DNA of 64,000 nt from Bolinopsis microptera (lineage: Eukaryota; Ctenophora; Tentaculata; Lobata; Bolinopsidae), in the NCBI RefSeq assembly GCF_026151205.1, contig NC_087073.1, positions 22,886,987-22,950,986 of the forward strand, in the 5' to 3' direction. Both the position numbers and the translations under genes were made by a program. Shown here in pieces: positions 31,005-64,000 of the stretch; position 1 is the first letter of the stretch; every line of letters begins with the position of its first letter. The notes under the pieces are model-generated. The model was given only the letters and a program-made list of their open reading frames with translations, did not search any database and was not told where the DNA came from.

Positions 31005-31199
31005 ATTAGGAATTTACCGCATCCGATTTTCCGCAAACCCCGATTCACTGCAGTCATCTCTTTTCCCCCAAATAGAGCTTAACATGTATAATGTAAAAAA
31101 CAAAACACAAATTTACCCTGAACCCTGATTTACCGCGGATGTTTCCTTCCCCCAACTAGGGTTTAACATACATAATGTATGTTTTAATACTTTCAACAC
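31005..31199. repeat. Imperfect ~90-bp duplication between the two LINEs
   Basis: AATTTACCG... through TTAACATGTATAATGTA occurs twice (31011-31100, 31110-31185) with about 75% similarity by eye. Confidence 0.55.
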
Positions 31200-31493: not shown

Positions 31494-31817
31494 GACATCC
31501 TTGAATGGAGGTATTTTATATAGTAGTGTTGTATCTATATTCTATATCAATAATTTGCTATAGACACCCTATCTAGCCCAACCCTTCCCTTAACCCTCCA
31601 CTCCCCTTCCTTTATACATTGTACTCTTATCCCATGCCCAACCTGCTATAGACATATTAAATAACCTCTATTCTTCCCCTTTGGGACACTGCAGTCCACC
31701 CCGCTCCCCTGCCTCTTCCCCTCCCTCCCAGTCACCCAAAACATCACTACAACATACTCACTATACACTCATATATTTAGGTTTTTTGCTTTCGAAAATT
31801 CTCTCTGTTTATTCTTC

Positions 31818-34196: not shown

Positions 34197-34248
34197 AATA
34201 ACTCTAAAATTCAAAAACAAACAAGCCTCACGAGATCAAGTCGCTGTA

Positions 34249-37941: not shown

Positions 37942-38241
37942 TAATGTAAACAATCAAAACAACGATTTACCTCAAACCAAGTCTTGAGAGCACCCATGTA
38001 ATTTCCAGTTTAACGGCACTGCTATGTAAGATCAGGGGTTTACTGTGAATGACAGTACTTTACTTGCTGGTGAAGTACTGTCATTGTTCTAGTAAATCGC
38101 TGGTGGAGTACCGTCCTTGTACCAGTAAATTGACCCAAAGGTTCATCGATATGCATTATGCATATTCATCTTTAATGTAGGTACTATGGTAATGGGTATT
38201 AAAAAAACTTTCAAAGTAACTTTTCATTCGCTCTAGCTGTG
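37942..38241. other. Upstream region of the mannosidase gene
   Basis: Unique sequence of 300 bp holding the presumed 5' UTR and promoter. A GAAGTACTGTCATTGT / GGAGTACCGTCCTTGT near-repeat lies at 38062-38120. No TATA box is placed with confidence. Confidence 0.4.
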
Positions 38242-38325
38242 ATGATACGACGAACATACGGAAAATGGCTTTTTCTGATGGTAGTCTGCTTCACTGTTTT
38301 CCTCATGTTTCAATACACCTCACAG
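38242..38325 (+). CDS. MAN2A: Mannosidase exon 1: start and membrane anchor
   Basis: The ATG is followed by IRRTYGK and then a hydrophobic WLFLMVVCFTVFLMF segment (residues 9-23). Positive charges before the anchor predict the N-terminus in the cytoplasm. It ends at CACAG before donor GTTTGT, phase 0, 28 codons. Confidence 0.9.
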
Positions 38326-40845: not shown

Positions 40846-40876
<31 letters not shown>

Positions 40877-43800: not shown

Positions 43801-46800
43801 CAATATCTTTCTTAGCTTCTCATTAGGTATTGCAATATCTTTCTTAGCTTCTCATTAAGTATTGCAATATCTTTCTTAGCTTCTCATTAATTATTGCAAT
43901 ATCTATCTTAGCTTCTCATTAAGTATTGCAATATCTATCTTAGCTTCTCATTAGGTATTGCAATATCTATCTTAGCTTCTCATTAAGTATTGCAATATCT
44001 ATCTTAGCTTCTCATTAATTATTGCAATATCTATCTTAGCTTCTCATTAGGTATTGCAATATCTATCTTAGCTTCTCATTAAGTATTGCAATATCTTTCT
44101 TAGCTTCTCATTAAGTATTGCAATATCTATCTTAGCTTCTCATTAGGTATTGCAATATCTATCTTAGCTTCTCATTAAGTATTGCAATATCTATCTTAGC
44201 TTCTCATTAGGTATTGCAATATCTATCTTAGCTTCTCATTAGGTATTGCAATATCTATCTTAGCTTCTCATTAAGTATTGCAATATCTTTCTTAGCTTCT
44301 CATTAGGTATTGCAATATCTATCTTAGCTTCTCATTAGGTATTGCAATATCTATCTTAGCTTCTCATTAAGTATTGCAATATCTATCTTAGCTTCTCATT
44401 AAGTATTGCAATATCTATCTTAGCTTCTCATTAAGTATTGCAATATCTATCTTAGCTTCTCATTAGGTATTGCAATATCTATCTTAGCTTCTCATTAAGT
44501 ATTGCAATATATATCTTAGCTTCTCATTAAGTATTGCAATATATATCTTAGCTTCTCATTAAGTATTGCAATATCTATCTTAGCTTCTCATTAATTATTG
44601 CAATATCTATCTTAGCTTCTCATTAAGTATTGCAATATCTTTCTTAGCTTCTCATTAATTATTGCAATATCTATCTTAGCTTCTCATTAGGTATTGCAAT
44701 ATCTATCTTAGCTTCTCATTAAGTATTGCAATATCTATCTTAGCTTCTCATTAAGTATTGCAATATCTATCTTAGCTTCTCATTAGGTATTGCAATATCT
44801 ATCTTAGCTTCTCATTAAGTATTGCAATATCTATCTTAGCTTCTCATTAAGTATTGCAATATCTATCTTAGCTTCTCATTAAGTATTGCAATATCTATCT
44901 TAGCTTCTCATTAAGTATTGCAATATCTATCTTAGCTTCTCATTAAGTATTGCAATATCTATCTTAGCTTCTCATTAGGTATTGCAATATCTATCTTAGC
45001 TTCTCATTAAGTATTGCAATATCTATCTTAGCTTCTCATTAAGTATTGCAATATCTATCTTAGCTTCTCATTAGGTATTGCAATATCTATCTTAGCTTCT
45101 CATTAAGTATTGCAATATCTTTCTTAGCTTCTCATTAAGTATTGCAATATCTTTCTTAGCTTCTCATTAGGTATTGCAATATCTTTCTTAGCTTCTCATT
45201 AAGTATTGCAATATCTTTCTTAGCTTCTCATTAATTATTGCAATATCTATCTTAGCTTCTCATTAAGTATTGCAATATCTATCTTAGCTTCTCATTAGGT
45301 ATTGCAATATCTATCTTAGCTTCTCATTAAGTATTGCAATATCTATCTTAGCTTCTCATTAGGTATTGCAATATCTATCTTAGCTTCTCATTAAGTATTG
45401 CAATATCTTTCTTAGCTTCTCATTAAGTATTGCAATATCTATCTTAGCTTCTCATTAGGTATTGCAATATCTATCTTAGCTTCTCATTAAGTATTGCAAT
45501 ATCTATCTTAGCTTCTCATTAGGTATTGCAATATCTATCTTAGCTTCTCATTAGGTATTGCAATATCTATCTTAGCTTCTCATTAAGTATTGCAATATCT
45601 TTCTTAGCTTCTCATTAGGTATTGCAATATCTATCTTAGCTTCTCATTAGGTATTGCAATATCTATCTTAGCTTCTCATTAAGTATTGCAATATCTATCT
45701 TAGCTTCTCATTAAGTATTGCAATATCTATCTTAGCTTCTCATTAAGTATTGCAATATCTATCTTAGCTTCTCATTAAGTATTGCAATATCTATCTTAGC
45801 TTCTCATTAGGTATTGCAATATCTATCTTAGCTTCTCATTAGGTATTGCAATATCTATCTTAGCTTCTCATTAAGTATTGCAATATCTATCTTAGCTTCT
45901 CATTAAGTATTGCAATATCTATCTTAGCTTCTCATTAAGTATTGCAATATCTTTCTTAGCTTCTCATTAAGTATTGCAATATCTATCTTAGCTTCTCATT
46001 AGGTATTGCAATATCTATCTTAGCTTCTCATTAGGTATTGCAATATCTATCTTAGCTTCTCATTAAGTATTGCAATATCTTTCTTAGCTTCTCATTAAGT
46101 ATTGCAATATCTATCTTAGCTTCTCATTAGGTATTGCAATATCTATCTTAGCTTCTCATTAGGTATTGCAATATCTATCTTAGCTTCTCATTAAGTATTG
46201 CAATATCTTTCTTAGCTTCTCATTAAGTATTGCAATATCTTTCTTAGCTTCTCATTAAATATTGCAATATCTATCTTAGCTTCTCATTAAGTATTGCAAT
46301 ATCTATCTTAGCTTCTCATTAGGTATTGCAATATCTATCTTAGCTTCTCATTAAGTATTGCAATATCTATCTTAGCTTCTCATTAGGTATTGCAATATCT
46401 ATCTTAGCTTCTCATTAAGTATTGCAATATCTTTCTTAGCTTCTCATTAAGTATTGCAATATCTTTCTTAGCTTCTCATTAGGTATTGCAATATCTATCT
46501 TAGCTTCTCATTAAGTATTGCAATATCTATCTTAGCTTCTCATTAGGTATTGCAATATCTATCTTAGCTTCTCATTAGGTATTGCAATATCTATCTTAGC
46601 TTCTCATTAAGTATTGCAATATCTTTCTTAGCTTCTCATTAAGTATTGCAATATCTTTCTTAGCTTCTCATTAATTATTGCAATATCTATCTTAGCTTCT
46701 CATTAAGTATTGCAATATCTATCTTAGCTTCTCATTAGGTATTGCAATATCTATCTTAGCTTCTCATTAAGTATTGCAATATCTATCTTAGCTTCTCATT

Positions 46801-49800
46801 AGGTATTGCAATATCTATCTTAGCTTCTCATTAGGTATTGCAATATCTATCTTAGCTTCTCATTAAGTATTGCAATATCTATCTTAGCTTTTCATTAAGT
46901 ATTGCAATATCTATCTTAGCTTCTCATTAAGTATTGCAATATCTATCTTAGCTTCTCATTAAGTATTGCAATATCTATCTTAGCTTCTCATTAAGTATTG
47001 CAATATCTATCTTAGCTTCTCATTAAGTATTGCAATATCTATCTTAGCTTCTCATTAATTATTGCAATATCTTTCTTAGCTTCTCATTAAGTATTGCAAT
47101 ATCTATCTTAGCTTCTCATTAGGTATTGCAATATCTATCTTAGCTTCTCATTAAGTATTGCAATATCTATCTTAGCTTCTCATTAAGTATTGCAATATCT
47201 ATCTTAGCTTCTCATTAGGTATTGCAATATCTATCTTAGCTTCTCATTAAGTATTGCAATATCTTTCTTAGCTTCTCATTAATTATTGCAATATCTATCT
47301 TAGCTTCTCATTAAGTATTGCAATATCTTTCTTAGCTTCTCATTAATTATTGCAATATCTATCTTAGCTTCTCATTAAGTATTGCAATATCTATCTTAGC
47401 TTCTCATTAAGTATTGCAATATCTATCTTAGCTTCTCATTAAGTATTGCAATATCTATCTTAGCTTCTCATTAAGTATTGCAATATCTATCTTAGCTTCT
47501 CATTAAGTATTGCAATATCTATCTTAGCTTCTCATTAGGTATTGCAATATCTATCTTAGCTTCTCATTAGGTATTGCAATATCTATCTTAGCTTCTCATT
47601 AGGTATTGCAATATCTATCTTAGCTTCTCATTAAGTATTGCAATATCTATCTTAGCTTCTCATTAAGTATTGCAATATCTATCTTAGCTTCTCATTAAGT
47701 ATTGCAATATCTATCTTAGCTTCTCATTAGGTATTGCAATATCTATCTTAGCTTCTCATTAAGTATTGCAATATCTATCTTAGCTTCTCATTAGGTATTG
47801 CAATATCTATCTTAGCTTCTCATTAAGTATTGCAATATCTATCTTAGCTTCTCATTAAGTATTGCAATATCTATCTTAGCTTCTCATTAAGTATTGCAAT
47901 ATCTATCTTAGCTTCTCATTAAGTATTGCAATATCTATCTTAGCTTCTCATTAAGTATTGCAATATCTATCTTAGCTTCTCATTAATTATTGCAATATCT
48001 ATCTTAGCTTCTCATTAAGTATTGCAATATCTATCTTAGCTTCTCATTAAGTATTGCAATATCTATCTTAGCTTCTCATTAAGTATTGCAATATCTATCT
48101 TAGCTTCTCATTAAGTATTGCAATATCTATCTTAGCTTCTCATTAGGTATTGCAATATCTATCTTAGCTTCTCATTAGGTATTGCAATATCTATCTTAGC
48201 TTCTCATTAATTATTGCAATATCTATCTTAGCTTCTCTAAATTGAGATCTCCAGACACTTGGTTGTGTCTAACATTGGATGAGCATTATATTAAGTTGAC
48301 CAAAAGGTATAAGCCCTTGAACATGTTGAAAGTAAATACTGAGTTTACCCGCATTCCCCACATTTGCACTTAGAGGAAGCGGTCCAGGGTTAACAATACC
48401 AGGATTTACTATTATTACCAAGATAAGATTCATCCCAAGCAGCCAGATTATGCATTCTGTAAAAGCTTTGCCCATTTTACCATTAAATGGACTATTCCTA
48501 TATGTTGAATTCCGACAGAACTTATGTAACCACAGGCAAACCTTAAATAACTTACGTAATTATTGCACATAAATTTCAAAGAATATAGATATTTCGTGGA
48601 TCTAAATATTAACTGTTTCAGGTGTCGTTCTTCAAGTTGTGGTGGGAGGAGCAGGATATGGACGTTAGACTGGACATGAGAAGGTCGTTAAATTTAAAAT
48701 TTGGGAATAGCTAGCTAGCCGTAGCTATGCGCCTGTTTCCACTCTAACAACTCTAATAGCGCATTAATATGATAATTTCAACTAAAGGCAACTTTAAATG
48801 TGCTCAGCTATGTTTTGTTCGACAAGCTCCATTTTAATCGTTTTAATAAGATCTAATCTTGTGTGAGTTTTGACTTTGAATTTATAACACTTATTATATA
48901 CATATATATTTTTTGAGTAAACATTGGCTGGTACTTCGGGCCGGTCCCCAACAAAAAAGGTATAGTAAGGTATAGTATGCTGCACCCTGTAAAGTAGGGT
49001 AACTATGCTGCACCCTATATAGTAAGGTATAGTATGCTGCACCCTATATAGTAAGGTATAGTATGCTGCACCCTGTAAAGTAGGGTAACTATGCTGCACC
49101 CTATATAGTAAGGTATAGTATGCTGCACCCTATATAGTAAGGTATAGTATGCTGCACCCTGTAAAGTAGGGTAACTATGCTGCACCCTATATAGTAAGGT
49201 ATTAGTGCTTTTCATGCAACAAGTAAAACAAATCCTTTATGTCATGTTTCCAGGGTTTGGACTGGAATTGCCTGCTTAAAGAACCTCCATCGCATTACAT
49301 TACATAATTTTCTGAAACATATATTACATTTACAATAAATTATGCAATATCACAACATTACAATCAACAAAATAAATTTAATCGCAGAATCTCAAATGCA
49401 AATAATCGTAAATTAAACACAAAAAACAAACAACAGAAAACAACTTAAACATGCAATAAATGAATATACGAATGCGCATCTTTTGTCAACTTACTCCTTC
49501 ATAAAATTAATTTTTGACAAAAAAATTTTTTTAGACGGTAAAATAATGGTTACTAATTTATAAGTCACAAATAATAAATCAATACAAATTAATCACAAAT
49601 ACTAGAATAATTAATAGATATTAGGTAACTTATATAACTGAAAAACGATATATGTCGATACAAATTACAAAATAATATTAGGTGATTGAAACATTTCAAT
49701 AAATTCATCATAAATATCACTACCATATTTACCCCAAATATTTAATCTTGATTTATAAAACTTGACAAACTTGTTGCGCAAAGCAGCTAACTTAAATCCT

Positions 49801-52800
49801 TGCGCAACCAATTTACCTAAAAGTTCGGTAACACAATTTTTGAAACCCTTAAGTGTCGAATTAATTCTGGCTAATCGTACTAATTGAGAAATAAATATTC
49901 CATAAGACAAATTATTTGGAACGTTTCCATCCAAAAAAGGATAAGATATAACTTTAAAATTATAATCTTTTCTTTTATCATATAACGTCACTCTAAACTT
50001 TCCTTGATAAATACTAATGTTTAAGTCTAGATAGCAACATTTACGAGCCGAAATATTAGTATTATTTACTATCATTTCCTTAGGATAAATATCTTCTAAT
50101 ACATTCTGTAATAAATTGAAATCATTAAAAACTATCAAATCATCTTGATAACGAAAAGTGTCTTTTAATCTTTTTAGATTTTCTGTATCCCCTTGTTCTA
50201 TCAAAAGTTTAATATATTTATATTCGTAAACATGTAAATAAACATTAGCTATTTGTGGTGCTGCATTGGTACCCATTGGTATTCCAATAACTTGTCTATA
50301 AATTTGACCCTGATAAGTAACATAAGAATTATCAATCAAATAATTAAGACATTCCAAAAGTGTATCTTTAGAAAAATGAACTTTATTTTTACTAACATTA
50401 TCAGAGAAATAGGCCTTCTTAGTATAAAGATTAGGAATAATATAAGACTTATCTTTAAAATCAAATACTCTTTCTACAAACATACGAAGATTATCCTTCA
50501 ATTGAATATGAGGAATAGATGTATATAAAGTTGAAAAATCATAAGTACTGACAGACTTTAAACCTTTCTGGGTATTATCATAACTAAGAAAATCTAAGAT
50601 AGGCTCATTATTATCAATAACAAAATAATCATTTCTAACGTGAAATTTATTATCATATATAGATTTATTTTTAGCTGAGTGAAGCATAGATTTAATACAA
50701 ATGCTAAGATAGACTGATAATTGTTGTAAACTACTTCCACTACCAGACGTTATATATCTAACTCCGACTGGCTTTTTATGCTGTTTTGGTGTAATATATA
50801 AATAAGGTAATTTGCTATTATCTTCATCAAATTTAATACGATGTTTAAGTAAGAATGCTTTATGCTCATTAATTATATCATCTTCTGAACGATTAACTTT
50901 AGTAAATGTATTCGATGATAATTCCTTTTCAATCATACTAATATAGAACTTTTTACAAACAATAGTAATATTATTTTTGGCTTTATCGGTAGGAACCAAT
51001 ACAAAATCTTTATGAAGCTCATCTGCACCCTGTAAAGTAGAGTAACTATGCTGCACCCTATATAGTAAGGTATACTATGCTGCACCCTCTCAGGTTGGCA
51101 CAGGAGGGTAGGTTTGAGTTGGGTAACTATGCTGCACCCTCTCAGGTTGGCACAGGAGGGTAGGTTTGAGTTGGGTAACTATGCTGCACCCTCTCAGGTT
51201 GGCACAGGAGGGTAACTACTAACTATGGTGCACCCTCTCAGGTTGGCACAGGAGGGTAGGTTTGAGTTTGTACAAGGAGGATGGGTGCAGAATGACGAAG
51301 CTAATACGCATTACTTTGCTATTTTCAATCAAATGTTGGACGGTCACGACTGGTTAAAGAAGAACATACCAGGTTTCTCTCTTACTATAGTCACGCAACT
51401 GATCACATTAAAATAGTAATCCTTCATCACGGGATTTTACGAATTAATAAATGAAAGTAATACTTTTTTGCATTAATTATTTAATGTTAAGACCGAATCT
51501 AAACTCTTATTTCAGAGGCGATGCCAAAGTCGGGTTGGGCCATTGATCCGTTTGGTTTGTCTCCTACAATGGGCTATGTTAACAAACTGTTCGGACTTAC
51601 TGGAATGCACATCCAGGTTTAGTCCCCACAAGGACTCTTAGTGTACTACTATACTAATTTACTACTATGCTAGTCCCCACAGTTCATCTACTCATATCTT
51701 GAAATGTGTTAATCAAATGTTCGCGTGAACAATTGTTCAACATTTTCTATTTTAACTCAATTGTACATCGACATTCGACAGGTGTTTGACAATTTCTACA
51801 AAACTCTACATTTACACGGACTGTGTCACGTGTTGCTGTGGTAACATGTGACACAGTGTTGCTGTGTTGCTGTGGTAACACGAGTATTTCAGAGGGTGCA
51901 CTATGCTGTTAAGAACCATCTGGCACAAACTAAGAATTTAGATTTCAGATGGAGGCAATCCTGGGGTGAGTCTGTAGAGTTAGTAATTAGTTACACTATT
52001 TAGGTCTATTGGGGTCTATAGATAAAAAAGATGTGGGCGAAAATTGCCTGCATAAATGTGTCTTCGAGTCTGTAGTCACACCCTCATTTTGTTTGTTTGT
52101 GATTGTTGGAAACTAATGCTTCGCGATAAACGCCCGCTTGTGGATATAATACATATCATACTCGCCTCGCGGGCGAAAGTTTCATGGGTTTGTGAACAAC
52201 AATCTTCAGAAGATTGTTGTTCACACATCCAAGAAACTTTTAGTTCCTGACGAAAACATCGTTAACTTTGTCACGCTTCTATATACAGGGTGGCCCAAAA
52301 GTGACTACCCACACGCAACCTCTTAATAACTCACGTAATTCGTCTCCAAATTGCACCAAAATTTCAGAGATTATAGATATGGGTCAAACTTAGATTTCCT
52401 GAAAGTTTCGTAAGCCACGCCCAATTACATTGGGCGTGGCGTGACACTCCCTCTTTTTCACTATTGTCTTCATAAAATGAGAACGCTTTAAGCTAAGAAC
52501 TCAAAATTTTTTGCACACATTTGGCTTGATAATTGAAAACCTTTCCCAAAGTTGTAAGTTCATTGGTTAAATAATGGCTGAGTTATGACCATTTCAAAAC
52601 TCATCGGATACGTGATCCGAGCACTCAGTCAGTGATCTCTGCACTTGGTTAATGGCCTGTTTGGCTCACATGCACCGCTTGATTGGTATATATATATAAT
52701 TATGATATACAATATATTATTAAGAAACTGTTTACACCATTAAAATATTCAAAACCCCTAAAAGAAATCAAGTCATCCTAAAATGGTGATCAGTACAGAT

Positions 52801-55800
52801 CAAGACAGCTAGAGTTAAAATTTGTTCCTCCAAGCAACTCTATCATTCGGCTAATATCTTAAGCTTATTAAGATCATTCAAAGAGTAAGTTTTTAAACCT
52901 CTACAGGTCAAATCATTCACAATAATCTTGAACAAATTCTTACGATGCGCACCGACGCGCCCTTTACAGTTTGTTGTGACAGCAAACTTTAACGCTAATG
53001 CAGCGGGGGAGTCATCAGCACTACGCAAGATATGACCTAGGAGCTTCCACCTTGCTTTAGGGACACGATCTGATAGCTTAACTGAGTTACATCTTAGGTA
53101 TAAGTTTGCATTGGATATTGTTCCATGAGGCCAATAAATGTTCAGTAATATATAATATATACCTGTTTATATAAATAGCACTATCATATTATTATAATTT
53201 ACTAGAATATCACTCAATAAGACACACAATACTTCAGATTCTGAAGGAACGACAGATATGCTAACTCACCTGGGCCCTTTCGTGTCGTACGGACAACAAC
53301 ACTCCTGCGGGCCTGACCCTGACGTTAGTTCCTTATTTGGGCATCACGTGGGGTAACACATTGTTAACATTACCTTATTTGGGCATCACGTGGGGTAACA
53401 CGTTGTTAACATTACCTTATTTGGGCATCACGTGGGGTAACACGTTGTTAACATTACCTTATTTGGGCATCACGTGGGTAACACGTGTTAACATTACCTT
53501 ATTTGGGCATCACGTGGGGTAACACGTTGTTAACATTACCTTATTGGGCATCACGTGGGGTAACACGTTGTTAACATTACCTTATTTGGGCATCACGTGG
53601 GGTAACACGTTGTTAACATTACCTTATTTGGGCATCACGTGGGGTAACACATTGTTAACATTACCTTATTTGGGCATCACGTGGGGTAACACGTTGTTAA
53701 CATTACCTTATTTGGGCATCATGTGGGGTAACACATTGTTAACATCACCTTATTTGGGCATCACGTGGGGTAACACGTTGTTAACATTACCTTATTTGGG
53801 CATCACGTGGGGTAACACATTGTTTAACATTACCTTATTTGGGCATCACGTGGGGTAACACGTTGTTAACATTACCTTATTTGGGCATCACGTGGGGTAA
53901 ACACATTGTTAACATCACCTTATTGGGCATCACGTGGGGTAACACGTTGTTAACATTACCTTCTTTGGGCATCACGTGGGGTAACACATTGTTAACATCA
54001 CCTTATTTGGGCATCACGTGGGGTAACACGTTGTTAACATTACCTTATTTGGGCATCACGTGGGGTAACACGTTGTTAACATTACCTTATTTGGCATCAC
54101 GTGGGTAACACGTTGTTAACATTACCTATTTGGGCATCACGTGGGGTAACACGTTGTTAACATACCTTATTTGGGCATCACGTGGGGTAAGACATTGTTA
54201 ACATTACCTTATTTGGGCATCACGTGGGGTAACACGTTGTTAACATTACCTTATTAGAGAATCACGTGGGGTAACACGTTGTTAACATTACCTTATTTGG
54301 GCATCACGTGGGGTAACACGTTGTTAACATTACCTTATTTGGGCATCACGTGGGGTAACACGTTGTTAACATTACCTTATTTGGGCATCACGTAGTGTAA
54401 CACATTGTTAACATTACCTTATTTGGGCATCACGTGGGGTAACACGTTGTTAACATTACCTTATTTGGGCATCACGTGGGGTAACACATTGTTAACATTA
54501 CCTTATTTGGGCATCACGTGGGGTAACATGTTGTAACATTACCTTATTTGGGCATCACGTGGGGTAACACGTTGTTAACATTACCTTATTTGGGCATCAC
54601 GTAGGGTAACACATGTTAACATTACCTTATTTGGGCATCACGTGGGGTAACACATTGTTAACATAATTACCTTATTTGGGCATCACGTGGGGTAACACGT
54701 TGTTAACATTACCTTATTTGGGCATCACGTGGGGTAACACGCTGTTAACATGACCTTATTTGGGCATCACGTGGGGTAACACATTGTTAACATTACCTTA
54801 TTTGGGCATCACGTGGGGTAACACATTGTTAACATAATTACCTTATTTGGGCATCACGTGGGGTAAACACGTTGTTAACATTACCTTATTTGGGCATCAC
54901 GTGGGTAACACGCTGTTAACATTACCTTATTTGGGCATCACGTGGGGTAACACGTTGTTAACATTACCTTATTGTTAACCTAAGTGTTAACATATTACTT
55001 GAAGACTTTTTCTTTCTGTCACACTCACGGAGACTATACTTTCAGGTTTGCTGCATGTTTAACTTTATGGATAGAGGAACGGGGGATTCAGGGAATGATT
55101 TAAAGAGCGGCAGTTTACTTGTTCCATACTACAGAGGAGAACGTTGTAGAGAGCGTTAGTTTACTAGTCCCCTACTACAGAGGAGAACGTTGTAGAGAGG
55201 TTAGTTTACTGGTCCCTACTACGAGGAGAACGTTGAGAGAGAGTTAGTTTACTGGTCCCTACTACAGAGGAGAAACGTTGTAGAGAGGTTAGTTTACTGG
55301 TCCCTACTACAGAGGAAGAACGTTGTAGAGAGGTTAGTTTACTAGTCCCCTACTACAGAGGAGAACGTTGTAGAGAGGTTAGTTTTACTGGTCCCTACTA
55401 CAGAGGAGAACGTTGTAGAGAGGTTAGTTTACTGGTCCCTACTACAGAGGGAACGTTGTAGAGAGGTTAGTTTACTGGTCCCTACTACAGAGGAGAACGT
55501 TGTAGAGAGGTTAGTTTACTAGTCCCTACTACAGAGGAGAACGTTGTAGAGAGGTTAGTTTTACTAGTCCCTACTACAGCGGAGACGTTGTAGAGAGGTT
55601 AGTTTACTGGTCCCTACTACAGAGGAGAACGTTGTAGAGAGGGTTAGTTTACTGGTCCCTACTACAGAGGAGAACGTTGTACGAGAGGTTAGTTTACTAG
55701 GTCCCTACTACAGAGGAGAACGTTGTAGAGAGGTTAGTTTACTAGTCCCTACTACAGAGGAGAACGTTGTAGAGAGGTTAGTTTACAGGTCCTTACTACA

Positions 55801-58800
55801 GAGGAGAACGTTGTAGAGAGGTTAGTTTACTGGTCCCTACTACAGAGGAGAACGTTGTAGAGAGGTAGTTTACTAGTCCCTACTACAGAGGATAACGTTG
55901 TAGAGAGGTTAGTTTACTAGTCCCCTACTACAGAGGAGAACGTTGTAGAGAGGTTAGTTTACTTGGTCCCTACTACAGAGGAGAACGTTTAGAGAGGTTA
56001 GTTTGGGAACCCCCCTATTTAAGAGGGGGAACTTTGGTAGAGAGGTTAGTTTACTGGCCCCGTATTACAGAGGAGAAAATTTTTTGGAGGGGTTAGTTTA
56101 GGCCCATACTACAGGGGGAAAAACGTTTAGAGGGGGTTATTTTAACTAGTCCCTACTACAGAGGGGGAATACGTTTTTGGAGAGGTTGGGTTACGGGGCC
56201 CTAAAAAGAGGGAACCCCAAAGGTTTAGAGAGGTTATTTTTACGGGTCCCTACTACAGAGGAGAACTTTGGGTTAGAGGGTTTTTTTTAAATGGGGCCCT
56301 TTTCAGGGAGAAGGTTTTTAAAAGGGTTGGGGTTTTACTATCCCTACTACAGGGGGAAACTTTGGAGAGGGGTTTAGTTTACTGGCCCTCCCAACAGGGG
56401 AAAAAGGGTTTTAGAGGGGGTTAGTTTCTGGTCCCTATACGGGGGGGAAAACGTTGTAGAGAGGTTATTTTACTGGCCCCTTTCTACAGAGGAGAACGTT
56501 GTAGAAAAGGTTTTATTTACTAGTCCCCTACTCAAAAGGAGAACTTTTGTAAAAGGGGTTTTGTTTCCCTAGTCCCCCCACAGGGGGGAAAAATTTGTAA
56601 AAGGGTTAGTTTACGGGGCCCTTTACAACGGGGAACTTGTTGAGGGGTTTTGTTTTGGGTCCCTCCCAACAGAGGAGAACGTTGTAGAGGGGGTTGTTTA
56701 CTAGTCCCTACTACAGAGGAGAACGTTGTAAAAGGGGTTTTGGGTTTACTAGCCCCAAATAAAAGGGGAAAAAAAATTTTTGGTAGAGGGTTTTTTACTA
56801 GCCCCTATTTCAAGGAAAAACTTGAGAGGGGGTTTTAGTTTCGGTCCTTTTACAGGGGAAAAGAACTTTGGGTAAAAGGGGTTTATTTTAAATGGCCCCT
56901 ACTACAGAGGAGAACGTTGTAGAGAGGTTAGTTTACTAGTCCTTACTACAGAGAGAACGTTGTAGAGAGGTTAGTGTACTAGTCCCTACTACAGAGGAGA
57001 ACGTGTAGAGAGGTTAGTTTACTGGTCCCTACTACAGAGGAGAACGTTTAGAGAGGTTTAGTTTACTAGTCCCTACTACAGAGGAGAACGTTGTAGAGAG
57101 GTTAGTTTAACTGGTCCCTACTACAGAGGAGAACGTTGTAGAGAGGTTAGTTTAACTGGTCCCTACTACAGAGGAGAACTTTGTAGAGAGGTTAGTTTAC
57201 TGGTCCCTTCTACAGAGGAGAACGTTGTAGAGAGGTTAGTTTACTAGTCCCTACTACAGAGGAGAACGGAAAGAGGGTTTAGTTTACTGGTCCCTATTTA
57301 AAACGGAGAACTTTTAGAGGGGTTTGTTTCTGGTCCCTACTACGAGGGAAATTTGGAGGTTTTTTTTACGGGGCCCCTACTTCGAGGAGAACGTTGTAGA
57401 GGGGTTTATTTTACTAGTCCCTACTACAGGGGAGAACTTTTGAAAAAGGGGTTATTTTCTAGTCCTACTAAAAGGGGAGAACGTTGTAAAAGAGGTTTTT
57501 TTACAGGCCCTTACTCCCAGGGGGGGGGGGGAAACGTTGTAGAGGGGTTTTGTTTCCCGGTCCCATTTACAGAGGAAAACCTTTTTTTGAGGGGTTTAAA
57601 TTTTTAAATTGTCCCTACACAGAGGAAAAAACGTTGTAGAGGGTTATTTTAAATAGCCCAACTAAAGGGAAAGAACGTTGTAGAGGGTTATTTTAAAAGG
57701 CCCCCTTAACTACAAAAAGGTTGTAGAGGGGTTAGTTTCCTAGTCCCTACTAAAAGGGGGAAAACCCGTTGTAGAGAGGTTATTTACTGGTCCCTATTTC
57801 AGGGGAGAAGTTGTAGAGGGGAAATTTTTTCCAGTCCTTAAACAAGGGAACGTTGTAAAAGAGGTTAGTTTACGGGGCCCACTACAAGGTAACGTTTTTA
57901 GAGGGGGTTAGTTTACGGGACCCTACTACAAGGGTGAAACCCGTTTTTAAGAGGTTATTTTTACTGGCCCCTACTACAAGGAAACTTTGGTAGAGGGTTG
58001 TTTCCAAGACCCAAAACCAAAACAGAGGAGAACTTTTTAGAAAAGGTTAGTTTACGGGGTCCCAACTACAGAGGAAACGTTGTAGAGAGGTTAGTTTACT
58101 GGCCCCTTTACTACAGGGAAAGAACGTTGTGGGAGAGGTTAGTTTATGGCCGCTACAAACGGGGAAAAGAACGTTTTTGGGGTTTATTTTTATGGTCCCA
58201 ATACAGAGGAGAACGTTGGGGGAGTGGGAAATTTTTAAAGGTCCCACTTACAGAGGAGAACGTTAGAGGGGTTTTTTTCGGGGTCCCTAAACAGAGGGAA
58301 ACTTTGAGAGGGTTGGGGTTTTCTAGTCCCTACAAACAGGGGAAAGAACGTTTTTAAAGGGGGTTATTTTAAAGGGTCCCTACTCCCGGGGAAACTTTTG
58401 GGGGGAGATTTTTGGGGTTTCGGTCCCTACTACAGGGGGAAACGTTGTAGAGGGGTGTTTGTTTTATGTCCCTACTACAGGGGGGTTTTGTTTAGGGGGT
58501 TGGGTTAAACTATCCCCCTACTACAGGGAAAACGTTTTTAGAGAGGGTTTTATTTGTCCCAAATTTCAGAGGGGGAAGGGGTAGAGGGTTTTTTTTACAG
58601 GCCCTTTAACAACGGGAGAACGTTTTAGAGAGGTTTTTTAAAAGGCCCCTACACAGAGGAGAACGTTGTAGGGGAGGTAGTTTTTTAATTTTTGGCCAAC
58701 AGACAAGGGGAACGTTGTAAAAGGTTAGTTTACTAGTCCCTAACAGAGGAGAACGTTTTTTGGGGGGAATTTGTTTACGGGGTTCCCTACTACGGGAGGA

Positions 58801-61800
58801 GAGGGTTAAAAAGAGGGGTTTTATTTTAAATGTCCCTTTTCAGAGAGAACTTTTGTAGGGGGGTATTTTACGGGTTTCCCAAACCCGGGGGGGAAAAACG
58901 TTGTAAAAGGGGGTTTTTACTTTCCTTACTACAGAGGAGAACTTTGGGTGAGAGGTTGGGGGTTTACTGTCCCAAACTCCCAAGAGGAGAACGTTGTAGA
59001 GAGGTTAGTTTATTTGACCCGACTAAAAGGGGAACTTTTGTAGAGGGTTGGGTTTATGGTTTCCCTATTTACGAGGAGAAGGGTTGTTAGAGGTTAGTTT
59101 ATAGACCCTACTACAGAGGAGAACGTTGTAAAGGGTTATTTTTAAGGCCCCCTACCCCAAAAGGGGGGGTTTTTTAGAGAGGTTAGTTTTTAAAGTCCCA
59201 AATAAAGGGGAGAACTTTGGTAGGGGGGTTTAGTTTATGGGTCGCTACTAAAGGGGAGCGGGTTAAAGAGGTTATTTACGGGTCCCTACTACAGAGGAAA
59301 CGTTGTAGAGGGTTTGGGTTTTTAGCCCCTACTAAGAGGAGAACGTTGAAAGGGGAGGTTAGTTTTGGGCCCCTACGAAAAGAGGAGATTTTTTGCAGAG
59401 AGGTTATTTCAAACGGTCCCTACTACAGAGGGAGAACGTTGTAGAGAGGTTAGTTTATAGCCCCCCCCCTACAGGGGAAAAACAATGTAGAGAGGTTAGT
59501 TTTCGGTCCCTAAACAGGGGAAAAGTTGAAGGGGTTGGGTTTATTGGCCCCTACTCCCGAGGAGATTTTGGGAGAAGGTGGGTTTACTAGTCCCTACTAA
59601 AAGGGGAGAAGGGGAAAAGAAAGTTTTTTAATTGGGCCACTACAGAGGAAAAATTTGGTAGAGAGGTTTTTTAATATCCCTATTTCCATAGGAGAACTTT
59701 GGTAGAGAGGTTATTTTTCGTACCCCTAAAAAAGGGAAAAACGTTGTGGGAAAGGTTTTTTTAAACAAGTTTTAACTACAGGGGAAAGAACTTTTTGGGG
59801 GGAGGTTAGTTTACTAGTCCCATTTTTCAAGGAAAAAACTTTGGTAGAGGGGGTTAGTTTTCTGGTCCTACCCAGAGGGGGAAGGGTTGTAAAAGGGGTT
59901 AGTTTTACGGGGCCCCTACTGCAGTGGAGAACTTTGGGTGGGAAGGTTAGTTTTAATAGCCCCTTTAAACAGGGAAAAACGTTGTAGAGGGGTTAGTTTA
60001 AAGTCCCTATAAAAGAAGAACGGGGTTGGGGAGGTTGTTTACGGGTTTCCTACTACGGGAAGGGGGCCTTGTAGAAGGGGTTTAATTTCCCCTTCCCCCC
60101 CAAGGAGAACCTTGTAAAAAGGTTATTTTTACTGGTCCCTACTACAGGGAAAACCCGTTGAAGAGAGGGTTTATTTTTAAAATTTTTTTTAAGGTCTCTA
60201 CTAAAAGGAAAGGGTTTGTAGAGAGGTTAGTTTTTTAAGTCCCTACAACAGGGGGAGAACTTTTGGTTAAAGGGTTATTTAACTGGTCCCTCCCCCCCAA
60301 GGAGAACTTTGGGAAAAAAAAGGGTTATTTTTCTGGTCCCTACAACAGAGGAAAGGGTTGTAGAGGGGGGTTATTTTAAAACCTAGTCCCTCCAACAGGG
60401 AAAAAGTTTTTGAGAGGTTAGTTTACTATTTCCCCGCAGAGGAAAACGTTTTTAAAAAGGTTATTTTATGGCCCCTTTTACTACAGAGGAGAATCGTGTA
60501 AAAAGGGGTTTAGTTTCTGGCCCCTACTCCCGAGGGAACTTTTGTAGAGAGGTTAGTTTACGGCCCCCTACTACAGAGGAGAACGTTTTGTAGAGAGGTT
60601 GGTTTCTAATTTGGTCCCTATTTAACAGGGGAAAAAACGTTTTTGAGGGGGTTAGTTTACTGGCCCCTTCCTACAGAGGAAAACTTTGGGAAGAGGGGTT
60701 TTAGTTTACAGCCCTTTACTTCAGGGGGGAAACTTGTAAAAAAGGTTTTTTACCGGGTCCCTACAAACAGGGGGGAACGTTGTAAGAGGTTGGGGTTTTC
60801 CCTGGGGGCCCAAACAGGGGGAAAACGTTGTAAGGGGTTTATTTATGGGCCAGTATCGGGGGGAGAAGTTGTAGAAGGTTAGTTTACTTATCCAATACAG
60901 GGGAGAACGTAATTTAACTATTGCAGGGTCAAAAAAAAAAATTGGACAGTGGAACTAAAAGCCGCCCTTCACTCCACGAACGGCTGTGTTTAGGGTTTTT
61001 GGGGAACGATTTTTTTAAACCACAAAAGGAAGACGCAAACGGGTGTACGACAACTAAAAAGGTTAATTTTTTCTATTTTATTTTAAACTAATAAAAACGG
61101 GGACGATATATTTATTTATATATTTATATTTATTTTCTGTACTCCTAAACATTAAAAATCGGTGTTGAAAATATATTTAATATATCCTTTCCCTTTTAAC
61201 GGGAAAAACCCCGAACATCAACTTTAACAAAAACTTTCCGCAAAAACCGTGGAGTTTAATCTCCCCCTTTAAAAATTTTGATATTACACATATTTTCCCA
61301 ACTGTTGTTACCCTAGTTTACCCATTACCTGCTATTTTTAACCCTGGGCAAACCTGCAGTTACCAAATTTATACTATCACAAATATACTGTATTATGGGG
61401 GCTTCTTATCTATTGCAGGATATATTTGCGTTAAGTTTAAATTTCCTTCACCAAAAAATAAACTAAAAAAACAGTCCCCTTTTTTGGGAACCCCAAAGGG
61501 GTAAGATTTGGTTCGCCCCATTGAAAATTTCCCTGTGACTTTTTCCCCCCCGGGCCCCCCCTACCCTTTAAGTTCACCCCCCCCGGGCCCCCCCCTGAAG
61601 TTCCCCCCTCCCCTTTTTGTTCACCCCCCCTTTAGCGGGGAAAAAAGGGGATTTCGGGGCCCTTGTACGAAATCGCAAAATTTTCCCATTCCCGCGACAA
61701 ATTTTTTGTAATGTTTAATGTAAAAGGCCTTTTTTAAATTTCGGGGTTTTCCCGCTTTTTTGGGCCCAAAATAATCGCTAAACCCTTTTTTGTCCCCCCC

Positions 61801-61994
61801 GCTGTGGGGTTTTTGGGGTAGTGTTTGTTTTACGGGGGGGGGGGGGGGGGGGTGGGGGGGGGGGGGGGGGGTTGGGGGGTTCCCCCCCCCCTTTTTTCAA
61901 AAGCTGGGGGGGAGTATTTTTGAACCGTGAGAAAATCCGGTACACAGAAACTGGCTGCTTTGGGTCTGGCGACTTCTTCACTTTACTCCGACAG
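38242..61994 (+). CDS. MAN2A: Golgi alpha-mannosidase II-like (GH38), 5' part, 12-14 exons
   Basis: Exons 1-12 (38242-38325, 39423-39482, 40659-40739, 41042-41087, 41252-41344, 41497-41606, 48622-48683, 51242-51372, 51516-51616, 51893-51965, 53238-53323, 55046-55154) join in frame with GT-AG sites. The product begins with a short cytoplasmic end and a membrane anchor (type II Golgi topology), a stem, then the GH38 catalytic domain: VFLIPHSHCDPGW, KFIYAE, VQGGWVQNDEANTH, WAIDPFGLSPTM, KNLDFRWRQ, HSCGPDP. The zinc ligands equivalent to fly H90, D92 and D204 (also the nucleophile) are present. The fourth ligand lies beyond the window. The enzyme trims mannose from GlcNAcMan5GlcNAc2 N-glycans. 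Oddities: N to C in HSHND, H to L in DPFGHS, D to G in SYDxxH, and array-filled introns. Two later exons are in poor sequence. Confidence 0.93.
38640..39370. other. GC-richer segment in mannosidase intron 1
   Basis: About 700 bp with clearly higher GC and no tandem repeat, flanked by AT-rich intron. The overlapping minus-strand frames (135 and 68 codons) have no recognised motif. It may be an inserted retroelement fragment, but I could not identify ends. Confidence 0.4.
39423..39482 (+). CDS. MAN2A: Mannosidase exon 2 (stem)
   Basis: Acceptor TTTCAG and donor GTATGT flank 20 codons, phase 0 at both ends, starting DIEHLDTLQ. A poorly conserved luminal stem. Confidence 0.8.
39483..40364. other. 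Intron 2 unique part
   Basis: No gene or repeat stands out. Short ORFs here lack support. Confidence 0.5.
40365..40587. repeat. 17-bp minisatellite (ACCAGGCCATACTGTGA)n, 13 copies
   Basis: Nearly perfect copies in intron 2, ending about 70 bp before exon 3. All three minus frames are open because 17 is not a multiple of 3. These are not genes. Confidence 0.97.
40659..40739 (+). CDS. MAN2A: Mannosidase exon 3 (stem)
   Basis: Acceptor TTAAATAG and donor GTCAGG flank 27 codons, phase 0 at both ends (KTEASQVSVMD...). The acceptor has a weak pyrimidine tract, so the start is less certain than in other exons. Confidence 0.7.
40845..40875. repeat. Poly-G run in intron 3
   Basis: An uninterrupted run of about 30 G. 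The length is unlikely to be exact. Confidence 0.9.
41042..41087 (+). CDS. MAN2A: Mannosidase exon 4 (stem)
   Basis: Acceptor CCTCAG, 46 nt (ISSLVEELDFHLDHG), donor GTAAAG, phase 1. A C run of about 25 follows in intron 4 (41119-41143). Confidence 0.8.
41252..41344 (+). CDS. MAN2A: Mannosidase exon 5: first zinc-site motif
   Basis: Acceptor TTTCAG, 93 nt, donor GTTTAC. It ends VFLIPHSHCDP with a split Gly codon. The second His and the Asp are zinc ligands in GH38. Cys replaces the usual Asn between them. Confidence 0.95.
41497..41606 (+). CDS. MAN2A: Mannosidase exon 6
   Basis: Acceptor CTCCAG and donor GTAAGT. It completes Gly and gives WLETYTKYYENK...FKFIYAE, aligned with the family's GWxxTFxxYY...KFIWAE segment. 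Phase 0 end. Confidence 0.95.
41693..48238. repeat. 32-bp minisatellite filling intron 6, ~205 copies
   Basis: The unit contains TTCTCATTAAGTATTGCAAT and ATCTATCTTAGC. Variants are AAGTATT/AGGTATT/AATTATT and ATCTATC/ATCTTTC/ATATATC. A 1,440-bp (45-unit) higher-order copy is visible: the blocks at 43021-43260 and 44461-44700 carry the same order of variants. Each unit also holds a pyrimidine-rich TATCTTAG resembling a weak acceptor. Confidence 0.98.
48275..48475 (-). pseudogene. LINE fragment, N-terminal ORF piece
   Basis: The minus-strand frame reads IVNPGPLPLSANVGNAGK, then LSIYFQHVQGLIPFGQLN. This resembles the start of the endonuclease-bearing ORF of some CR1/L2-type LINEs (NPGP followed by IxxxNxQGLIP). 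It is only about 65 codons and isolated in intron 6. Confidence 0.45.
48622..48683 (+). CDS. MAN2A: Mannosidase exon 7
   Basis: Acceptor TTTCAG, 62 nt, donor GTCGTT, phase 2. VSFFKLWWEEQD aligns with the family's ISxFxxWWE segment directly after KFIWAE. Confidence 0.93.
48962..49204. repeat. Minisatellite in intron 7, left block
   Basis: Alternating ~27-bp units CTGCACCCTATATAGTAAGG and CTGCACCCTGTAAAGTAGGG with TATAGTATG or TAACTATG. The same units reappear at 51027-51080 on the other side of the Penelope-like insert. Confidence 0.93.
49205..51027 (-). mobile_element. Penelope-like element, 5'-truncated, inside the intron 7 array
   Basis: A minus-strand element whose ORF and AT-rich 3' region (49205-49664) lie between two blocks of the same minisatellite. 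The ORF's first ~10 codons are array sequence, so the element is truncated at its 5' end. Confidence 0.75.
49665..51056 (-). CDS. Penelope-like reverse transcriptase (partial)
   Basis: 463 codons, the first ten from flanking repeat. It shows LPYLYITPKQHKKP (83-96), TYDFSTLYTSIPH (171-183), GIPMGTNAAP (258-267) and the catalytic RYQDD (302-306), then YDKRKDYNF, SYPFLDGNVP and YGIFISQLVR (370-395). This set of motifs is typical of Penelope-like reverse transcriptases, with Gln in place of the usual residue before DD. No GIY-YIG endonuclease is seen at the C-terminus. The frame is intact, so the insertion is young. The element class is assigned from motifs only. Confidence 0.8.
   Translation of the reverse strand: MQHSYSTLQGADELHKDFVLVPTDKAKNNITIVCKKFYISMIEKELSSNTFTKVNRSEDDIINEHKAFLLKHRIKFDEDNSKLPYLYITPKQHKKPVGVRYITSGSGSSLQQLSVYLSICIKSMLHSAKNKSIYDNKFHVRNDYFVIDNNEPILDFLSYDNTQKGLKSVSTYDFSTLYTSIPHIQLKDNLRMFVERVFDFKDKSYIIPNLYTKKAYFSDNVSKNKVHFSKDTLLECLNYLIDNSYVTYQGQIYRQVIGIPMGTNAAPQIANVYLHVYEYKYIKLLIEQGDTENLKRLKDTFRYQDDLIVFNDFNLLQNVLEDIYPKEMIVNNTNISARKCCYLDLNISIYQGKFRVTLYDKRKDYNFKVISYPFLDGNVPNNLSYGIFISQLVRLARINSTLKGFKNCVTELLGKLVAQGFKLAALRNKFVKFYKSRLNIWGKYGSDIYDEFIEMFQSPNIIL
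51046..51245. repeat. Tandem copies of the exon 8 acceptor and exon start
   Basis: TGCACCCTCTCAGGTTGGCA plus CAGGAGGGTAGGTTTGAG occurs with AG dinucleotides ending at 51093, 51145, 51197 and 51241 (periods 52, 52, 44). The last one is the working exon 8 acceptor. The third copy lacks TAGGTTTGAG. Confidence 0.93.
51242..51372 (+). CDS. MAN2A: Mannosidase exon 8
   Basis: Acceptor CTCTCAG, 131 nt, donor GTTTCT. It completes an Arg codon, then LAQEGRFEFVQGGWVQNDEA, matching the family's GxxEFVTGGWVMxDEANSH, and a HDWLKKNI helix. Phase 1 end. Three decoy acceptors lie just upstream. Confidence 0.95.
51516..51616 (+). CDS. MAN2A: Mannosidase exon 9: nucleophile motif
   Basis: Acceptor TTTCAG, 101 nt, donor GTTTAG. 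GWAIDPFGLSPTMGYVNK holds the catalytic Asp (fly D204). The normally conserved His of DPFGHS is Leu here. Phase 0 end. Confidence 0.95.
51893..51965 (+). CDS. MAN2A: Mannosidase exon 10
   Basis: Acceptor TATTTCAG, 73 nt, donor GTGAGT. RVHYAVKNHLAQTKNLDFRW aligns with the family's RxHYxVKxxLAxxxxLEFxWRQ. A GTGTTGCTGTGGTAACA duplication lies just upstream (51831-51880). Phase 1 end. Confidence 0.95.
51966..52285. other. Intron 10, left part
   Basis: Unique sequence. GAACAACAATCTTCAGAAG and CTTCAGAAGATTGTTGTTC around 52193-52220 form a perfect short palindrome. Confidence 0.6.
52286..52480. mobile_element. Probable mariner-type terminus
   Basis: TACAGGGTGGCCCAAAAGTG is a typical terminal inverted repeat start of Tc1/mariner-like elements. 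The matching other end was not found. CACGCCCAATTACATTGGGCGTG near 52415 is a hairpin. Confidence 0.5.
52820..53110 (-). pseudogene. LINE 3'-end fragment
   Basis: The minus strand reads RVPKARWKLLGHILRSADDS then ALKFAVTTNCKGRVG and DLTCRGLKTYSLNDLNKL, the C-terminal tail found after the reverse transcriptase in many LINE ORF2 proteins (GHxLRxxDDxPA...GRxG...DL). No RT core is present. A frameshift lies near 52840. Confidence 0.65.
53238..53323 (+). CDS. MAN2A: Mannosidase exon 11
   Basis: Acceptor ACTTCAG, 86 nt, donor GTTAGT. DMLTHLGPFVSYGQQHSCGP aligns with the family's [22 protein letters not shown]. The Asp after SY is Gly here. Phase 0 end. The intron 11 array begins seven bases after the donor. 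Confidence 0.93.
53331..54975. repeat. 42-bp minisatellite filling intron 11, ~39 copies
   Basis: Units contain TTATTTGGGCATCACGTGG and GGTAACACGTTGTTAACATT. They share the core TGGGCATCACGTG with the 34-bp array in the sema gene. Because 42 is a multiple of 3 a plus frame is open over runs, but it is not a gene. Occasional 1-bp indels are present. Confidence 0.97.
55046..55154 (+). CDS. MAN2A: Mannosidase exon 12
   Basis: Acceptor CTTTCAG, then VCCMFNFMDRGTG matching the family's VCCQFDFxRxG. It continues through LLVPYYRGERCRE to donor GTTAGT, phase 1. The last ~40 nt of this exon plus the donor are the unit of the following 44-bp array. Confidence 0.85.
55118..60910. repeat. 44-bp minisatellite derived from exon 12, ~130 copies
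   Basis: The unit comprises GTTAGTTTACTGGTCCCTAC and TACAGAGGAGAACGTTGTAG plus AGAG. It is nearly identical to the end of exon 12 with its donor. From about 56.0 kb the copies decay into G-, A- and T-run variants (clean copies return at 56.9-57.25 kb), which looks like consensus error. No frame here is a gene. Confidence 0.95.
60927..61061 (+). CDS. MAN2A: Probable mannosidase exon 13 (damaged sequence)
   Basis: Acceptor CTATTGCAG with the phase needed after exon 12. NWTVELKAALHSTNGCV followed, after a frameshift, by GNDF aligns with the family's [22 protein letters not shown]. The residue count from FNF to W matches the fly enzyme within one or two. An in-frame TAG and homopolymer errors suggest base-call damage rather than a real stop. 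The donor is uncertain (GTTAAT at 61062). Confidence 0.55.
61062..61930. other. Low-quality intronic stretch
   Basis: AT-rich sequence with an apparent acceptor TTATCTATTGCAG at about 61407-61419, followed by C- and G-run smears (61540-61900). An exon may be hidden here, but no reliable frame can be read. Confidence 0.4.
61931..61994 (+). CDS. MAN2A: Possible mannosidase exon 14
   Basis: GCFGSGDFFTLLRQ ends at CGACAG before donor GTAAAA. SGDFFT is a conserved GH38 Golgi-mannosidase motif (FPxLSGDFFTYADR). The acceptor is not clear, so the start is approximate. The downstream array begins at this donor. Confidence 0.45.
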
Positions 61995-63204
61995 GTAAAA
62001 ACCTTCCCTTAAAAAACCCCCCTTAAAACTTTAAAAAGAGAAAAACGGGTATTATAACACCCCCTTAAATTAGAAAATAACAGGTAAAAACCCCCTTTAT
62101 TTTAGTGGTAAACAGGTAACACCCTTTTATATTAGTGAAAACAGGAAACACCTTCTTATATTAGAGGTAACAGGAAAACCCCTTTCTTATATGATGGGGA
62201 ATTAACAGGTAACACCTTTTAATATTAGGGGTTTAACGGAAACCCCTCCTTATTTTAAGTGGTAACAGGAAACACCTCTTTAATTAGTGGAAAACCCAGG
62301 TAACCCCCTTCTTAAAAAAGAGATAAAAGGAAACCCCTTTCTTATTTTAAGGGGAAAAAACAGGAAACCCTTTCCCTTATTTTAAGTGGAAAAACCGGTT
62401 TACAAATTCTTTTTATTAGGGAACGGGTAACCCCCCCAAAAATTAGTGGAACAGGTAACACCCTTTAAAAATTGGGGGGAACGGGTAACACCCCTTTTAA
62501 AATGGGAGAAAAACCCGGAAACGACCTAAATTTTTTTGAGATAACGGGTTTAACACCCCCTTTTATTAGGGGTTTAAAGGAAAACACCTTTTTATTTAGT
62601 GAAAACAGGAAACCACCTTTTATATTAGAGGAAACCAGGTAAAAAACCTCTTTAATTAGGGGAAAACGGGTTAACCCCTTTTTTTATATTTAAGGATAAC
62701 AGGAAACCCACCTCCTTATTTCGGGAAAAGGGGGGAACACCCCCAAAAATTTTGAGAGGTAACAGGTAACACCCTTCGTATTTTATGGAAAAACCGGAAA
62801 ACACCTCCAAAAATTAGGGGGGAAACCCGGGTAACCCCGCCTTATTTTTAGGGATTTTAAAGGTAACCCCTATTTTTTGGGTGAAGGGGGTAACCCTTTT
62901 TTTAAAAGGTGAAACAGGTAAAAACCTCCTTATATTAAAGTAACAGGTAAAAACCTCCTTATAAAAAAGATAAAAAGGGTTTGGCACCCCCTATTATATT
63001 AGTGGTAACAGGTAACACCCCCCTTATATTAGTATAACAGGAAAACACCCCTTATACCCAAGATAAGGGTAAAAACCTCCTTAAAATTAGAGATAAAAAG
63101 GAACCCCCTCCTTTATTAGGGGAAAACCCTGTAAACCTCCTTATTTTAGTGGTAACGGGAAAAACACTTCTAATATTAGTGGTAACAGGAAACCCTTCCT
63201 TTGT

Positions 63205-63247
<43 letters not shown>

Positions 63248-64000
63248 TGGTAACAGGTAACCCCCCTTTATATTGGGAAATAATAGGAACACCCCCCCCC
63301 TTTTTAAACCAGATAACATGTAACACCCTCCTTAAAATTAAAAGGTAACATGATTTTAACACCTTTTATAAAGGGGATAAAAAGGAAACCCCTTTTAAAT
63401 TAGAGGAAACCCGGAACACCTTCTTATTTTAGAGGAAAACAGGTAACCCCAATCATTTTATTAGGGGGGAACGGTAATCCCACCTTTAAAAAATTAGAGT
63501 TAACGGGTAACCCTCCTTTATTTTAAAGAGATAACAGGAAACCCCCTTTCTTTTTTTTGAGGTAAACAGGAAACCACCTTCTTTTATTAGGAAACCCGGG
63601 TAAACCCCTTTAATATTAGGGGTTTAACAGGTAACCCTTCTTATATTAGGGGGATAACAGGAAACCCACCTTTTAAAAAGTGGAAAGGGTACACCTTTTA
63701 TTTTAGAGGTAAAGGTTTAAACACCTCTTTATTTATGGTAACGGGTAACCCTTCTTATAATGGGAGATAACAGGAAAACCCCTTTCTTAAAATAAGGTAA
63801 CAGGAAACACCTTCTTAAAATTAGGGGAAAAGGGTTTAAAAAACTTTTTTTAAATTAGTGGTAACAGGTAACCCCCTCCTTAAAATTAGTGGAAACAGGT
63901 AACACCTTTAAAAATTTAGTGGTAACAGGTAACCCCTCCTTATATTAGGGGAAAACAGGTAAAAACCTCCCTTATATTAGGGGTTAACAGGAAAACCCCT
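61995..64000. repeat. ~29-bp minisatellite to the window end
   Basis: The consensus contains AACAGGTAACACCTCCTTAT and ATTAGTGG, heavily corrupted by G, A and C runs. The ACAGGTAA in each unit resembles the exon 14 end plus donor. A C run of about 40 lies at 63207-63246. Confidence 0.85.

Follow-up and report, generated by a model that had tools for sequence, protein, structure and literature searches.

The stretch considered here comprises 64,000 nucleotides of the ctenophore Bolinopsis microptera (RefSeq assembly GCF_026151205.1, contig NC_087073.1, positions 22,886,987 to 22,950,986 of the forward strand; hereafter the window), and carries a gene that looks like a Golgi alpha-mannosidase II of the GH38 family, one intron of which is filled by a minisatellite with a 44-bp unit. 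Gene copies and paralogs were examined beyond the window, in the 264.65-Mb genome of 232 contigs that includes the window's own 23-Mb contig (C2). In keeping with a ctenophore source, one ionotropic glutamate receptor of this genome aligns closely, though clearly not identically, with the solved receptor ML032222a (ML for Mnemiopsis leidyi) at E 1e-116; the next molecule, 4zdm, gives 7e-66 and the best AMPA-type receptor ~4e-41. With the fly Golgi mannosidase II protein sequence as tblastn query, homology blocks on the + strand begin at 51243, 51524, 51884 and 53237, followed by the exon that carries the array, and further blocks lie downstream at L009:3238, L009:3680 and L010:2414. The array exon comes after HSCGPDPD and opens with VCCMFNF, the counterpart of fly VCCQFDF. 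Its assignment as the SGAYLFLP exon was ruled out, as that motif lies downstream at L010:2414 and the window exon matches VCCQFDF..NVAAR. The part of the gene around the array is laid out as follows, copy B being a second copy of the gene described below.

53237..53323, + strand: mannosidase exon preceding the array exon, ending ...LTHLGPFVSYGQQHSCGPDPD and followed by the donor GTTAGT (tblastn, sequence; the start coordinate is taken from the homology block, not from a mapped acceptor).
53324..55045, + strand: intron holding an array free of exon sequence, 42 bp x 39 at 53331-54973 (Tandem Repeats Finder (TRF), sequence).
55046..55154, + strand: exon VCC..NVVER, of which the last ~43 nt (from 55112) are the first array copy, with base errors relative to copy B (sequence, copy B, homology).
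55155..60926, + strand: intron made of ~131 unit lengths of the 44-bp unit (exon tail plus GTT), with the first donor GTTAGT at 55155 (TRF, sequence, copy B).
60927..61061, + strand: next exon (SLKILEQWRLKAAL..YDNYK in copy B), error-degraded in the window (match to B:35458-35590, the bounds set by eye against copy B).

Inspection of the sequence places the onset of the array inside the exon, at 55112, and its end at the acceptor at 60926, while TRF reports 44 bp x 99 at 55112-59599 and 46 bp x 3.7 at 60437-60605. The intron of 5,772 bp amounts to 131 unit lengths of 44 bp, much of it of poor sequence quality, in agreement with the about 130 copies over 5.8 kb claimed in an earlier note on this DNA. 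Relative to copy B, the exonic copy in the window has 2 substitutions and 1 inserted base, with 1 further inserted base at the donor, and the same note's description of exon edge and unit as matching almost base for base is thus a fair one for the window.

The clean version of this arrangement is found in copy B, an inverted second copy of the gene on the same contig (C2:22.78-22.82 Mb, L025-L028; position y of copy B is C2:22825001 - y), with corresponding exons of the two copies 140 kb apart. In copy B the array exon (B:22957-23063) ends ...AGTTTACTGGTCCCTACTACAGAGGAGAACGTTGTAGAGAG/GTTAGT, where the slash marks the splice junction, and the next exon begins at B:35458. The intron of 12,394 bp between them consists of 281 whole units and a 25-nt part-unit ending at the acceptor, and of nothing else. 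Each unit corresponds to the exon's final 41 nt plus GTT, and the exon tail and the unit are identical at 41/41 positions, which bears out the proposal that the unit is the 3' edge of a coding exon together with its splice donor. The 282 units (272 of 44 bp, 7 of 45, 2 of 43 and the last of 25) fall into 22 sequence types, the 272 units of 44 bp averaging 98.2% identity to the second commonest type. GTTAGT begins 279 of the 282, so that the copies keep their splice signals; a GT donor in every copy, as had been suggested, holds for nearly all of them, not strictly for each. The acceptor, CCCTACTGCAG/GTCACTG, sits in the final part-unit, whose 25 nt are 24/25 identical to a CTGCAG type of unit and 23/25 identical to the commonest type, and because of the latter match it is read as array sequence. 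Both predicted splice sites of the copy B intron now belong to the array, and the original intron body is gone.

Genome-wide, an exact 29-mer of the unit has 266 matches, all of them within the two gene copies (253 in copy B, 13 in the window copy), with 0 for a reversed control pattern. Within the copy B array, a 24-unit stretch with rare variants is repeated 34 units further on (score 35.3; highest score among 50 shuffles 18.4), a recurrence that fits the expectation of block duplication. The two gene copies hold ~131 unit lengths (window, error-ridden) and 281 (copy B), and could be alleles or paralogs; copy B may be a paralog or a misplaced haplotype. The duplicated region as a whole (window 37942-55154 and C2:22.78-22.82 Mb) is near-identical and inverted. 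Outside the array, most of the larger blocks are 91-97% identical between the gene copies; two blocks have 84 and 88%. An element resembling a long interspersed nuclear element (LINE) adjoins the mannosidase copy and has opposite orientations in the two.

The exon tail is coding by several lines of evidence. Joined across the array, the copy B exons read VCCMFNFMDMRNGGFRECFKSGSLLVPTTEENVVERSLKILEQWRLKAALHSTNAVFIELGNDFTYSLKEDAHLMYDNYK with no stop, and phmmer aligns them at E 1e-18 to the fly Golgi mannosidase II of known structure, placing NVVERS over NVAARS; matches to six distinct alpha-mannosidase II sequences (1hty and others) have E ~1e-18 over ~101 aa. The correct frame of the tail is SLLVPTTEENVVER, backed by copy B and by homology, and the LLVPYY frame in which it had earlier been read is an artefact of base errors and indels. 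An NV/NL..R core in the tail is common to three paralogs and the fly enzyme; the SGSLLVP part aligns poorly. The exon has the identical end point in paralogs L015 and L016, so a unit that spans the exon-intron boundary is backed by both homology and paralogs. Judged by these alignments, the exon tail is ancestral, genuine coding sequence. The reverse history, in which a pre-existing intronic satellite spread into the exon and left an exon end of satellite-derived coding sequence, would suit genes as rich in minisatellites as those examined (34 merged arrays of at least 60 bp in 95 kb) and an exon tail identical to the units, but we consider it extremely unlikely, given that the 41 nt encode an in-frame segment with the shared core and that the exact 29-mer is found nowhere else in the genome.

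Paralogs also bear on the age of the intron. In L015 (C2:21.24 Mb) and L016 (C5:2.64 Mb), an intron of ordinary sequence, 206 and 111 bp long and with no array, lies at the same phase-2 position, and the intron can therefore be placed before the array. The paralog L017 (C3:6.27 Mb) is uninterrupted at this position, which leaves room for gain or loss of the intron itself during the history of the family, though not by way of this array: gain in the other paralogs or loss in L017. In the paralog tree L017 groups with fly mannosidase II (84/88), a weak placement with long branches. An origin of the intron by the AGGT route, in which an uninterrupted coding exon is tandemly duplicated and the AG/GT of the copies become the splice sites of a new intron, is unlikely. 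The unit does contain AG/GT, the splice sites of copy B both lie in array sequence and L017 has no intron here, but the non-array introns at the identical phase-2 position in L015 and L016 make the intron older, unless introns arose independently at the same base, and the copy B acceptor comes from a CTGCAG inside a truncated unit, whereas the model predicts the AG/GT copy. On the sequences compared, the array appears as growth of an existing intron, not intron birth; of the two routes offered in the earlier note, intron growth stands, in that the array enlarged the intron, and AGGT birth does not.

We therefore regard the array as very probably a "mirage" minisatellite, in which, inside a phase-2 intron that a Golgi alpha-mannosidase II gene already had, a donor-spanning segment was tandemly duplicated and grew to occupy the whole intron. 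The process would have started with a tandem duplication of a segment across the 5' splice site (the last 41 coding nt plus GTT) in an intron already present, and the array would then have grown in blocks, by unequal exchange or slippage, until the intron was wholly array. Each duplication would leave the exon and first donor untouched and add intronic sequence alone. As the duplications spare both, growth may have been near-neutral, provided that the donor adjacent to the exon is the one used.

Several points weigh against this interpretation, the first of which concerns the assembly. One further feature belongs here:

56000..64000, no strand: stretch of raw-read quality, probably a gap fill, running ~2.3 kb past the window end into the first part of L009 (homopolymer fraction).

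From ~56000 to 66300, homopolymer runs of at least 4 make up 15-48% of each 500-bp bin; elsewhere in the scan of 50-72 kb they make up <10%, and in copy B, scored in 2-kb bins, no more than 13%. The stretch reads like uncorrected long-read sequence, and unit identities, genes and repeats within it are consequently unreliable. The Bolinopsis microptera assembly (estimated 254 Mb, 13 chromosomes) was built with wtdbg, gap-filled with TGS-GapCloser and purged of haplotigs (PMC10232365), a procedure that would explain such a stretch. It is very unlikely that the array is itself an assembly artefact, with a repeat collapsed or falsely expanded and the second copy an uncollapsed haplotype: the quality of the window copy from ~56000, the assembly and gap-filling software and the inverted arrangement of the two copies near a contig end all speak for it, but copy B shows a clean, regular array whose flanking exons are in frame, and four further donor-side arrays occur in other genes or at another exon of the window gene. 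The array length may nevertheless be wrong even if the array is real, as the copy number is taken from long-read assembly through near-identical repeats. The use of donor 1 and of the acceptor, and expression of the gene, are predictions from genomic sequence, and the exon tail may have been homogenised by the array. The window intron closes with ...AACGTAATTTAACTATTGCAG at its 3' end, possibly a remnant of the old intron instead of array sequence, or plain errors. Finally, L016 and L017, over ~6.5 kb each, show no array across an exon edge (L017 has a 54-bp x 2 repeat inside an intron), and the process is thus not universal.

The intron poses a problem of splice-site choice. When each of the 282 copy B donors is joined to the next exon, the frame stays open for donor 1 only, and a stop follows from the other 281. 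The intron also holds 267 acceptor-like CCCTACTACAG and 5 CCCTACTGCAG, so that in formal terms most units constitute a 19-nt microexon with an acceptor and a donor of its own (CCCTACTACAG/AGGAGAACGTTGTAGAGAG/GTTAGT). A more far-reaching interpretation, which is possible but doubtful, is that copies of the exon's own edge have taken the place of the entire original intron body, the acceptor among them, with ~280 donors and ~270 acceptor-like sites in competition and the outermost pair alone productive; that a recursive-splicing ratchet could operate along AG/GTTAGT; and that exon-edge arrays are a general route of intron growth in this lineage. A hairpin in the RNA of the unit is not convincing (z -1.6 and -1.7, with 12 of 200 shuffles equally good each time).

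Arrays at exon edges are not confined to this intron, and were found in 3 of 5 multi-exon alpha-mannosidase genes, all partly covered and with the two copies of the window gene counted as one. At HSHCDPG/GTAAGT, L015 has a 66 bp x 11 array (L015:376-1106) whose unit is 59 exonic nt plus GTAAGTT, in frame (LLPTSEELTVFLVPHSHCDPGK). A lysosomal-type gene on C3 has a 48 bp x 15.4 array at QPSG/GTAAGT, composed of 45 exonic nt plus GTA and with the frame open through the whole array (YSSSPGDKVDNQPSGK), as well as a 20-bp x 50 array at YKGG and two small arrays, 10 bp x 3.4 and 31 bp x 2.2. In the window gene itself, a 23 bp x 53 array (L010:2468-3689) includes the donor with just 3-4 exonic nt, and copy B has a 28-bp x 83 array that starts at the donor itself. 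Acceptors can be involved too: an acceptor and exon start, RQADYWSGYYTSRP, is present in 2 copies in the window gene and 5 in copy B, around a 16-bp array, and the window contains the following feature.

51069..51268, + strand: acceptor-side exon-edge array, 52 bp x 4 (CTCAG/GTTGGCACAGGAGGGTAGGTTTGAG), overlapping the homology block 51240-51374 RLAQEGRFEFVQGGW (TRF).

The GH38 matches L013 and L014 have the domain in one open frame and stand outside the five-gene count. In a Pfam-family survey, 8 MFS matches had the domain in one frame and are intronless, and thus uninformative on exon edges. In a naive permutation, 12 of the 34 arrays start at donors against 2.4 expected and 12 end at acceptors against 3.2, under a null that ignores short pre-expansion introns and includes the two gene copies separately. 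When each array is reduced to a single unit and the window copy is excluded, 9 of 23 start at a donor against 3.6 expected (p 0.004), a test in which the distance window was picked post hoc, exon ends were taken from homology blocks and several of the 9 arrays contain only intronic sequence. Donor-favoured seeding of arrays is therefore suggestive only.

Some further observations concern the same genes and the rest of the window. The lysosomal-type alpha-mannosidase gene L029/L030 (C3:6.59 Mb, reverse strand) has five tandem blocks at joined positions 5351-7604 that match the same exon (LEFNW/LEYRW/LEFRW...) and are candidates for mutually exclusive exons. A 21-bp repeat (x2.8) in a mannosidase exon at L024:3048-3105 yields a lysine-rich coding insertion (VKKKKEDVKKKKEDVEKL). 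Elsewhere in the window, long open frames of 870, 843 and 1192 aa at 28404-31013 (-) and 31665-37734 (+) are LINE-like by appearance alone. Other long minisatellites lie at 11790-15765 (16 bp x 250, with long open stretches in all three + frames), 17508-19433 (41 bp x 47) and 41706-48237 (32 bp x 204).

Arrays of this type have been described in amphioxus, where minisatellite-like tandem duplications that span exon-intron boundaries, termed "mirages", are reported from Adh3, globin, TnC and PGBD5 genes (PMC3087553, PMC3902484). According to these two reports, the unit spans an exon-intron boundary on the donor or acceptor side and many copies keep AG/GT signals, as in the mannosidase array, and reverse transcription PCR (RT-PCR) was reported as suggesting normal, undisturbed splicing. 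Amphioxus units measure 10-72 bp (Adh3) or 150-160 bp (globins BflGb6/BflGb9). Copy number differs widely, at 6 and 3 in two haplotypes of BflGb6 compared with 282 in mannosidase copy B, and the present array also differs in its ctenophore host and in taking up the entire intron including the acceptor; splicing was tested by RT-PCR in amphioxus, whereas here it is deduced from the genome. By its sequence, the mannosidase locus fits the definition of a mirage. AGGT intron gain (the Rogers model) likewise involves tandem duplication of a segment with splice signals, and in the potato RdRp case the duplication also crosses an intron-exon boundary (PMC4974935); the mannosidase array, in contrast, enlarged an intron that two paralogs have array-free, and did not create one. 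Ordinary intronic minisatellites share block duplications and differing lengths in two gene copies with the mannosidase array, but lack exon sequence, as does the 42-bp array of the preceding intron. In the literature covered, mainly open-licence papers and so weak evidence of novelty, mirage descriptions were found for lancelets only. What is new here is the ctenophore host, the scale and an intron entirely replaced including its acceptor, the mirage type itself being known from lancelets.

The array is a natural test of how a 5' splice site is selected when hundreds of donors are nearly identical and a single product is readable. It also makes concrete one way in which an intron grows: when the duplicated segment spans a donor, the exon and its original donor stay intact. 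The occurrence of exon-edge arrays in several ctenophore genes suggests that mirages are not peculiar to lancelets.

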